Part shown: positions 21,576 through 23,820 of the stretch, one piece after another | Layout of the letters: every line of letters starts with the position of its first letter | Numbering within the stretch: the stretch's first letter is position 1 | Assembly (NCBI GenBank): GCA_030706405.1 | Contig: JAUZOO010000001.1 | Location: forward strand, 205,762 to 269,761 | DNA length: 64,000 bases | Direction: 5' to 3' | Source: Bacteroidota bacterium | Lineage (GTDB): Bacteria > Bacteroidota > Bacteroidia > Bacteroidales > JAAUTT01 | Translations under genes and position numbers: made by a program | The notes under the pieces: generated by a model | Told to the model about the DNA's origin: nothing | The model's database searches: none | What the model saw: only the letters and a program-made list of their open reading frames with translations

Positions 21576-22808
21576 TTAGAAGGTCAAATTTTTAATTCGT
21601 TCCATGGCATCGTAAACGTTGTCGCGGTCGGCAAAGGCCGAAAAACGGAAATACCCTTCGCCCGAAGGACCGAATCCTGAGCCGGGAGTGCCAACTACGT
21701 TAGCTTCGTTGAGCAATTTATCAAAGAAATCCCACGATTTCATGCCGTTTTTAGTCTTCACCCAAACGTAAGGAGCGTTTACACCTCCATAAACCATATA
21801 GCCGGCTTTGGTAAGGCTTTCGCGCATGATCCGGGCGTTTTCGAGGTAATAAGCGATTACTTCTTTCACTTCCTTCCGGCCCTGTTCGGTATAAATTGCA
21901 GCAGCAGCCTTTTGTACAGGGTACGACACGCCATTAAACTTGGTGGTATGACGTCGGGTCCACAACGGTTTTACAGGATGAGCCTGTCCGTTACTGTCGT
22001 AAGCTACTAATTCTTCAGGAATTACGGTAAAAGCACATCGAGTACCGGTAAATCCAGCTGTTTTCGAAAAACTACGAAATTCGATAGCTACTTTCTTAGC
22101 ACCTTCAATCTCATAAATTGAATGCGGAATAGATTCATCAGTAATGAATGCTTCGTAAGCGGCATCGTAAAGAATAACACTCTTATTGGCGATGGCATAG
22201 TCAACCCATTTTTTCAATACTTCTTTGGATGCAACCGTTCCGGTAGGATTATTAGGGAAACAGAGGAAAATCAGGTCGGGACGTTCCGAAGGAAGTTCGG
22301 GAACAAATCCGTTGTCGTCGGTACAAGGCATGTAGATAATGCCTTCGAAATAACCGTTATCGAGACAAACACCAGTTTTGCCCGACATCACGGTAGTATC
22401 GGCATATACAGGGTAAACGGGATCACAAATCGCAATTTTGTTATTCTGCCCAAAAATTTCCTGAATATTTCCGGTGTCGCATTTAGATCCGTCCGAAACA
22501 AAAATATCGTCGGCCTTAATATCTACGCCACGAGCCTGGTAATCGTTAACCGCAATAGCTTCGCGCAGGAAGTCGTACCCTTGTTCGGGGCCGTAACCTT
22601 TAAAAGTTGTAGCATTACCCAATTCTTCAACACCTTCGTGAAATGCTTTAAGCACCGAAGGAACCAAAGGCTGGGTAACATCGCCAATACCCATGCGGAT
22701 TACTTTCTTATCGGGGTTTGCCTGTGTATATTCGCGGACACGACGGCCGATTTCGGGGAATAAATACCCGGCTTTCAGCTTCAGGTAATTTTCGTTTATT
22801 AATGCCAT
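21576..22808 (-). CDS. dapL: LL-diaminopimelate aminotransferase
   Basis: PLP enzyme that makes LL-diaminopimelate directly from tetrahydrodipicolinate, bypassing the succinyl steps. 410 residues, the family length. Visible are [58 protein letters not shown] and the PLP lysine segment [16 protein letters not shown]. It is divergent from dapF, the next enzyme of the pathway, with back-to-back -7 boxes between them. Confidence 0.96.
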
Positions 22809-22905
22809 ATTTCCAGTTTTAATTATTTATCTACTTAATAAGTACATCCCAACCTCATCAATTGTTGAACGTTGTATGGATATTTTGTTACTTTAAATCC
22901 GAACT

Positions 22906-22914
22906 GCAAATATA
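22906..22914 (-). promoter_or_regulatory. dapL promoter -7 box
   Basis: The minus strand reads TATATTTGC, an exact TAnnTTTGC match. It predicts a leader of roughly 90 nt before the dapL ATG. Confidence 0.55.
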
Positions 22915-22932
22915 ACCATTTAAACAATTTGG

Positions 22933-22941
22933 TACTTTTGC
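22933..22941 (+). promoter_or_regulatory. dapF promoter -7 box
   Basis: TACTTTTGC is an exact TAnnTTTGC match, 27 bp before the dapF ATG. The dapL -7 box lies only 18 bp away on the other strand, so each -33 region would overlap the opposite -7 box. Confidence 0.6.
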
Positions 22942-22968
22942 ATCTCCATAAACCTCAAAAAACGCGAC

Positions 22969-23820
22969 ATGCAAAACTTTTTTGTAAAAACTCACGGTCT
23001 GGGCAACGAATATATTGTACTGGATAGCAACAACATAAATTTCGAACTCTCCATCGAACGTATCAAACGGATTTGCAATGTGCACTTTGGCGTTGGCTCC
23101 GATGGTATCCTTCTGAAAGTACCCACGACCAAAGCCGATTTCGGACTCCGTATTTTTAATCCCGATGGTTCGGAAGCTGAAAAAAGTGGCAACGGGCTCC
23201 GCATCTTTTCTAAATTTCTTTACGATTACAAACATGCCGATTCAAAAGAATTTACCATCGACACCTTGGGCGGAATAGTGACTGCGCACGTGATTAAAGA
23301 AAAAAACGGCAAGGCCTCGATAATTAAGGTGGACATGGGCAAAGCCATCTTCCGTTCGGCCGATATTCCCGTAAAATGCGATCAGGAAGAATGTTTTGAC
23401 CAAACGCTTGTGGCTAAAGATAAAACATTTACTATCAATTGTGTATCGGTAGGAAATCCGCATTGCGTTATCTTAAAAGATTCACTCGACGAAACTGAAA
23501 TTAAGGAATATGGAACATATATCGAAAACCATGCGATGTTCCCCAATCGGATTAACGTTCAATTTGTCAAGGTAATATCGCGCAATGAAGTGGAAGCGCT
23601 CATCTGGGAACGGGGTGCCGGATTTACGCTGGCTTCGGGAAGTTCGTCGTGCGCCGTAGCTTCGGCAGTTATTAAAAAAGGCCTTACCGACCGCAACGTA
23701 ACGGTTAAAATGCCCGGCGGTTCGCTGAAAATTGAAATCGACGAAGCCTGGAATATCCGGATGACAGGCGAAATCAAAGAAATTGCCTCCGGAACATTAA
23801 GCGACGAGGTACTCTACTAA
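22969..23820 (+). CDS. dapF: Diaminopimelate epimerase family protein; catalytic cysteines replaced by serine
   Basis: DapF interconverts LL- and meso-diaminopimelate with a two-cysteine proton relay. This 283-residue protein keeps the fold signatures: THGLGNEYIVLD at the start, GVGSDGILL, NPDGSEAE, VSVGNPHCVIL, and ERGAGFT. At the first catalytic site the usual CGNG reads SGNG (S73, codon AGT at 23185). At the second, ACGTGACA reads ASGSSSCA (S223, codon TCG at 23635); the remaining C228 is not the catalytic position. The location next to dapL argues for a role in lysine or peptidoglycan synthesis. It may be an active serine variant, an epimerase of another substrate, or inactive. Confidence 0.85.
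   Translation: MQNFFVKTHGLGNEYIVLDSNNINFELSIERIKRICNVHFGVGSDGILLKVPTTKADFGLRIFNPDGSEAEKSGNGLRIFSKFLYDYKHADSKEFTIDTLGGIVTAHVIKEKNGKASIIKVDMGKAIFRSADIPVKCDQEECFDQTLVAKDKTFTINCVSVGNPHCVILKDSLDETEIKEYGTYIENHAMFPNRINVQFVKVISRNEVEALIWERGAGFTLASGSSSCAVASAVIKKGLTDRNVTVKMPGGSLKIEIDEAWNIRMTGEIKEIASGTLSDEVLY

Follow-up and report, generated by a model that had tools for sequence, protein, structure and literature searches.

The window, the whole 64,000-nucleotide stretch of Bacteroidota DNA analysed here, contains an uninterrupted open reading frame that runs from ATG to TAA and encodes a 283-residue protein resembling the diaminopimelate (DAP) epimerase DapF, with serine at both positions of the catalytic cysteines (Table 1). 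The gene faces dapL, as the first-pass annotation had stated, and the two are divergently oriented across a short intergenic region in which TACTTTTG on the forward strand and TATATTTG on the reverse strand fit the Bacteroidota −7 consensus, TAnnTTTG, a match made by eye and with no control. The gene is followed by one encoding a regulator-like protein of 975 residues, a homologue of which occupies the same position in a Paludibacter locus (L043).

Table 1. Features of the dapL–dapF-like region, in window coordinates.
Feature	Position	Strand	Basis or remark
dapL, LL-diaminopimelate aminotransferase, divergent partner	21576..22808	−	TIGR03542, 631.8 bits (cut-off 364.7)
Divergent intergenic region, 160 bp	22809..22968	.	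Between dapL and the Ser/Ser DapF gene
Ser/Ser DapF-like gene	22969..23820	+	TIGR00652, PF01678; sole PF01678 locus found in the genome
Lys72 codon, immediately 5' of the Ser73 codon	23182..23184	+	Residue counts, 214 distinct sequences
Ser73 codon (AGT), first catalytic Cys position	23185..23187	+	Alignment to solved DapF structures
Gln198 codon; Glu in most Cys-type DapFs	23560..23562	+	Residue counts
Ser223 codon (TCG), second catalytic Cys position	23635..23637	+	Alignment to solved DapF structures
Ser226 codon; Gly in Cys-type DapFs	23644..23646	+	Residue counts
Regulator-like gene, 975 aa	24023..26950		Homologue in the same position in L043

The protein scored 247.8 bits against the NCBIfam DapF equivalog model TIGR00652 (cut-off 114.65), a threshold exceeded by all ten other scanned members of the serine group described below, and PF01678 (189.2 bits) was the sole Pfam family found at E-values up to 0.001. 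The histidine racemase and PrpF families, named for comparison in the first-pass annotation, matched poorly or not at all: the CntK/HisR model NF033599 gave 20 bits (cut-off 300), and the PrpF and proline racemase families gave no match in the same Pfam search. The model for bifunctional DapF/glutamate racemases, NF038284, reached 71.7 bits against a cut-off of 350. An AlphaFold2 model built from 60 sequences (mean pLDDT 95.9) has the DapF fold, its best Foldseek match being Anabaena DapF with a DAP analogue (9mro; TM 0.90/0.92, rmsd 2.1) and the next the C73S mutant of H. influenzae DapF (2q9h); the hydroxyproline epimerase 4lb0 and the dehydratase 4k7g were also matched at E-values below 1e-13.

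Textbook accounts of DapF, an enzyme that belongs to the lysine and cell-wall pathway, centre on its thiol–thiolate pair. In the window protein the two catalytic cysteines are absent, and Ser73 and Ser223 align exactly with them in the solved enzymes of H. influenzae, Arabidopsis and Anabaena, which upholds the double replacement called in the first-pass annotation at the level of both codons and alignment. The PROSITE signature of DapF, N-x-[DN]-[GS]-[SENGFT]-x(4)-C-[GI]-N-[GA]-x-R (PMC8225329), fails solely at its cysteine and matches once that C is changed to S. Residues corresponding to the DAP contacts listed for Anabaena DapF (PMC12039745) are present (N13, N64, N75, N163, N196, E214, R215, G224 and S225), and helices of the predicted structure begin at positions 74 and 224, which would place both serines at helix N-termini. 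It had also been considered that other cysteines might occupy the active site. The cysteines most conserved in the serine form are those at 36, 166 and 228; because Arabidopsis and Anabaena DapF share these three yet keep the catalytic pair, we reject them as substitute catalysts as far as sequence tells, and no other replacement cysteine was apparent at sequence level. A sequencing error or a pseudogene is ruled out by the recurrence of the same two serines, with varied codons, in relatives of about 46–73% identity and in 125 of 214 distinct homologues. Among the 32 rows in which codons were read, residue 73 is encoded by AGT, AGC or, once, TCC, and residue 223 by TCA, TCC, TCG or TCT; such codon drift within kept serines speaks for long selection for serine.

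Residue statistics over the 214 distinct sequences covering these sites revealed that the serines are accompanied by further changes. Residues 72-73-223 read K-S-S in 125 sequences, M-C-C in 81, N-C-S in five, and K-S-N, M-C-T and L-C-C in one each; Lys72 is thus found in 126 sequences, always with Ser73, and position 72 is occupied by Met, Asn or Leu in each of the 88 sequences that keep Cys73. Gln198 and Ser226 are present in every K-S-S sequence, compared with Glu198 in 72 and Gly226 in all of the 81 M-C-C sequences, and the five N-C-S sequences have Gln198 and Ser226 as well. The window protein differs from most cysteine-type DapFs not only in its two serines but also in having Lys72, Gln198, Ile79 and Ser226 in place of Met, Glu, Cys and Gly, respectively. 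The DAP ligands N64, N75, N163, N196, E214 and R215 are conserved in all 125 K-S-S sequences, and N13 in 124 with one X. On sequence grounds, the window protein is a member of a widely spread Ser/Ser subfamily defined by the coupled changes Lys72, Gln198 and Ser226.

The exclusive pairing of Lys72 with Ser73 also fits an arrangement in which Lys72 would itself act directly as general base on this side of the substrate, leaving Ser73 only to position the substrate or relay a proton. In solved DapF structures the loop carrying residue 72 wraps around the substrate, and the authors of the same source find no basic residue within 4 Å of the catalytic sulphurs in Anabaena DapF (PMC12039745). That source, however, reports the equivalent residues as making no direct hydrogen bond to inhibitor or substrate (PMC12039745), and the Lys72–Ser73 association could reflect shared ancestry, save for one concerted Lys-Ser/Asn-Cys difference; we regard a catalytic role of this kind for Lys72 as improbable.

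The phylogeny strongly supported a distinct serine group. In a tree of 71 rows, rooted at the midpoint only, omitting L117 for its long branch and including as cysteine rows those nearest to the query rather than a sample of all DapFs, 44 serine-group rows (38 Ser/Ser, 5 Cys/Ser and 1 Ser/Asn) were split from 27 Cys/Cys rows by a 100/100 branch; an earlier 60-row tree was concordant (32 serine-group versus 28 cysteine rows). The five Asn72-Cys73-Ser223 sequences (L008, L188, L190, L191 and L192) form one clade (100/100), and its sister position to the remaining Bacteroidota branch is weak (95/65). This clade may represent a reversion or a retained intermediate, two scenarios that entail equal numbers of residue-73 changes on the 71-row tree as counted by eye; three of its five genomes (G248, G328 and G390) also encode Ddh. 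Serine-type DapFs from records labelled Bacillota or Clostridium sp. LS (L038, L040) and Aquificota (L036, L039) were placed within the Bacteroidota branch, and these may be recent transfers or the result of binning errors or contaminated assemblies.

The first-pass annotation had treated the double serine as a peculiarity of one lineage; the genome surveys revealed instead a widely spread subfamily that, in another phylum, supplies the single DapF match of nearly every genome. Among 30 loci compared from a search of 99 related genomes, four genomes had SGNG/ASGSS at 60–67% identity and a fifth CGNG/ASGSS. A scan of named genomes, comprising at least 80 loci, added members from records titled Prolixibacteraceae, Marinilabiliales, Candidatus Dadabacteria, Rokuibacteriota, Methylomirabilota, FCPU426, Chloroflexi and Spirochaetes, together with two Lachnospiraceae. 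Within the window's own order, 18 of 393 genomes matched at E-values up to 1e-70 (13 Ser/Ser and 5 Cys/Ser). Of two other genomes of the window's genus, one (G001) has, in place of the serine form, a Cys/Cys DapF (L021) that falls close to a Veillonellaceae sequence, a point against the serine form as the DAP epimerase of the cell, and the other (G004) gave no match to the window protein. The phylum that holds the Dadabacteria records (a set including records titled Dadabacteria, one Thermodesulfobacteriales and one 'bacterium') showed exactly one match at E-values up to 0.001 in 54 of 57 genomes and none in three, and all 54 were Ser/Ser. For the phylum of Rokuibacteriota and Methylomirabilota, 71 of 95 genomes matched at E-values up to 1e-30, a threshold that could miss an additional cysteine copy, 67 of them with at least 59% identity across the aligned region, fragments included; the 30 of these 67 loci that were read are all Ser/Ser, as is the copy of genome G117, the remaining four matches (G490, G491, G496 and G499; 38–39%) lie outside the read set, and G114 and G117 are single-copy by TIGR00652. 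Chloroflexota matches at E-values up to 1e-70 came from 11 of 400 genomes, all Ser/Ser; copy number was checked there in genome G119, which has one TIGR00652 match.

A second dapF elsewhere in the window's genome (99.71% complete), a possibility left open at first pass, was not found: profile searching returned one PF01678 locus, and neither profile nor homologue searches recovered a normal dapF. Among 30 further genomes searched with TIGR00652, 24 had a single match (23 Ser/Ser and 1 Cys/Ser) and six had more than one (G104, G106, G109, G121, G122 and G123), the best-scoring copy being Cys/Cys in each of the six; these and the other gene absences given here refer to profile searches of genomes that include partly incomplete MAGs. 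The Ser/Ser form is thus apparently the sole enzyme copy in many unrelated bacteria, which suggests that the reaction is possible without cysteine. A cultured isolate with only a serine-type DapF is Tangfeifania diversioriginum.

In Anaeromicropila populeti (G121), two Ser/Ser copies (L195 and L057) accompany a Cys/Cys DapF, and one of the two is clustered with genes for an AMP-forming ligase, an aminotransferase and ABC-transporter-like proteins (L195, 2609–9009), perhaps a natural-product pathway. Faecalicatena faecalis (G123) encodes a Ser73/Asn223 member whose second site reads ANGTG (L063; L197, 5567–6433) alongside a Cys/Cys DapF and Ddh, and this protein probably has another function. 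Since the serine form stands beside a Cys/Cys DapF in 6 of 30 genomes, with one copy in a biosynthesis-like cluster, the serine group may be functionally heterogeneous.

The same observations count in favour of an alternative in which the window protein no longer works as an epimerase, or has a different substrate, and meso-DAP is supplied by some unrelated enzyme such as a PLP-dependent racemase. Proteins of the DapF fold annotated as DapF can indeed differ in substrate, as does the Fusobacterium histidine racemase HisR (PMC11602996), and Cys-to-Ser mutants of relatives are almost inactive, single mutants of PddB retaining under 0.1% activity (PMC8225329) and those of HisR having greatly reduced activity (PMC11602996). 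These mutants, like the Cys-to-Ser glutamate racemases reported to perform eliminations of chloroglutamate (PMC8142540), are engineered and lack the coupled changes of the Ser/Ser DapFs. Another substrate is further opposed by the conserved DAP contacts, by the low CntK/HisR score and by the dapL neighbourhood described below, and a substitute epimerase would have to be the same one in at least four phyla in which Ser/Ser is the single TIGR00652 match. We therefore consider this alternative unlikely, though less so than a direct catalytic role for Lys72.

The gene neighbourhood links the serine form to DAP metabolism. In the window's order, dapL is divergent from it in 10 of the 18 matching genomes, the window's own and 9 of 17 others, in compared loci that reach only 1.5 kb; one of these nine has lysA and another two small open reading frames in between. 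Comparison of 41 loci, of which many are short, showed a LysA-cluster gene next to the serine-type gene in 9; one such neighbour (L182) was typed, as was the LysA of the window's genome, which lies apart from the serine-type gene. In Chloroflexota, an aminotransferase 24–31% identical to the window's DapL lies beside 7 of 11 Ser/Ser copies, and the one that was typed scored 541.2 bits against the LL-diaminopimelate aminotransferase model NF006756 (cut-off 507) and 545 bits against TIGR03540 (cut-off 593.25), its gene running off the contig. Dadabacteria-type loci have conserved neighbours, none of which belongs to the dapL or lysA clusters apart from an aminotransferase three genes away in L056.

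Furthermore, the surrounding pathway was surveyed in the window's genome and the 30 further genomes. No Ddh bypass was found in the window's genome, where Ddh gave no profile match; a match over the cut-off was found in 1 of the 31 genomes, with weak partial matches of 20–27 bits in nine others. An additional set of 80 genomes, taken from 143 candidates, contained four with Ddh over the cut-off (G140, Ser/Ser; G248, G328 and G390, Cys/Ser), and a bypass of DapF is possible in these four Ser223-type genomes, which counts against the epimerase reading. DapB of the window's genome scored 134.9 bits (cut-off 122) and was over the cut-off in 29 of the 31 genomes; MurE was matched in 28 and over the cut-off in 27. 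The motif DNPR in MurE is a mark of meso-DAP, and it is present in the window's genome and in 26 of 30 MurE loci overall (26 genomes), the exceptions being two G119 pieces (DDPY and DDPL), a second G117 copy (DNPA) and one G111 piece that is too short. In the Chloroflexota genome G119, whose sole DapF is Ser/Ser and whose MurE pieces (L177 and L180) have DDPY and DDPL where others have DNPR, the cell wall may lack meso-DAP, which is a further point against the epimerase reading.

LysA was matched in 30 of the 31 genomes and exceeded the cut-off of 297.9 bits in 20. The LysA of the window's genome (296.4 bits) and one beside the gene in G203 (294.4 bits) fall just under this cut-off and carry GSLCENND, compared with GPICE[ST]GD in three higher-scoring LysAs. 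Such divergence would fit a scheme without any epimerase, in which LL-DAP is both built into peptidoglycan and decarboxylated, so that the protein would be only a leftover or else a regulator that binds DAP. We find this highly improbable: other genomes with only a Ser/Ser copy have LysA over the cut-off (372–388 bits in G103, G107, G046 and G002; over 500 bits in the Dadabacteria-type genomes G110–G113), and a leftover would not be expected to conserve both serines and the ligands so strictly. The divergent LysA lacking CE[ST]GD was accordingly set aside as a clue to a new pathway. As for a PLP-dependent racemase, the lysA model found only three fold-III candidates in the window's genome, namely LysA itself, a 632-residue frame, which we take to be MurF-Alr, and a 385-residue protein, presumably NspC.

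Taken together, dapB, lysA and murE are present and Ddh is absent in most genomes in which the serine form is the sole DapF. Of the three options offered in the first-pass annotation, the genome context favours a serine-based epimerase over a different substrate or a separate enzyme for the epimerization: the window's genome yielded no second DapF and no Ddh but has dapB, a gene of the LysA type and a murE with the DNPR motif. We conclude that the window protein is probably the working LL/meso-DAP epimerase of its cell, in which the hydroxyls of Ser73 and Ser223 would move the alpha proton instead of a thiolate/thiol pair.

A serine base requires a far larger pKa shift than a cysteine, a point against this conclusion. 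In the proposed serine-based mechanism, Ser73 and Ser223 would act as acid and base for the LL-to-meso exchange, removing the alpha proton of LL-DAP on one face and returning it on the other, while backbone NH groups would hold the carboxylate in the manner of DapF. Lys72 may lower the pKa of Ser73 or shuttle its proton, so that the Ser/Ser pair is perhaps activated by this lysine, and Gln198 and Ser226 may tune the site around Ser223; the positive charge gained with Lys72 and the negative charge lost with Gln198 would favour the alkoxide form. More tentatively, and at somewhat less than an even chance in our estimation, the subfamily could constitute a class of amino acid epimerases that need neither cofactor nor thiol, in which a Lys72–Ser73 unit and, from the opposite face, Ser223 within an SGSS turn perform 1,1-proton transfer at an unactivated alpha carbon, and which has served since long ago as the sole DAP epimerase of whole phylum-level lineages.

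Fold, length, DAP-binding residues and gene neighbours are common to the window protein and the DapFs covered by TIGR00652, such as those of H. influenzae, Arabidopsis and Anabaena. The H. influenzae mutants C73S and C217S (2q9h and 2q9j) have serine at one of the same two places, but they are engineered single mutants in a cysteine background without the coupled changes. Natural serines at such a site are known from the proline racemase superfamily, which has the same broad fold class: 4-hydroxyproline 2-epimerase has Ser93 opposite a cysteine (printed as Cys236 in a legend and Cys255 in the text), the dehydratase t3HypD has the pair Ser90/Thr256, and the natural first-face serine has been proposed as a catalyst (PMC4113996). 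This superfamily differs in family and substrate, its epimerase has serine on one face only and its Ser/Thr member is a dehydratase; its Ser/Cys and Ser/Thr members are the closest precedents for a Ser/Ser DapF. The histidine racemases CntK and HisR share with the window protein a DapF-like fold and independence of cofactors but use two catalytic cysteines (PMC11602996). In the E. coli aspartate/glutamate racemase Ecl-DER (Cys/Thr), a hydroxyl residue likewise replaces a catalytic cysteine, but this enzyme belongs to another family, has only one cysteine replaced and converts in one direction (PMC8142540). Searches of the open-licence PMC literature found no report of a natural double-serine DapF, of cell-wall data for Prolixibacteraceae or of a PLP-type DAP epimerase of Thermotoga.

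Inhibitors such as aziDAP act by alkylating the catalytic cysteines of DapF. If a natural double-serine DapF does serve as the sole copy, thiols would be dispensable for the reaction, and inborn insensitivity to thiol-directed inhibitors would be predicted in bacteria that depend on it. The natural series Cys/Cys, Cys/Ser, Ser/Ser and Ser/Asn provides ready material for asking what sets the pKa of the active-site base. For the family as a whole, a curated 'equivalog' model, TIGR00652, gives the name DapF to proteins in which both catalytic residues are missing.
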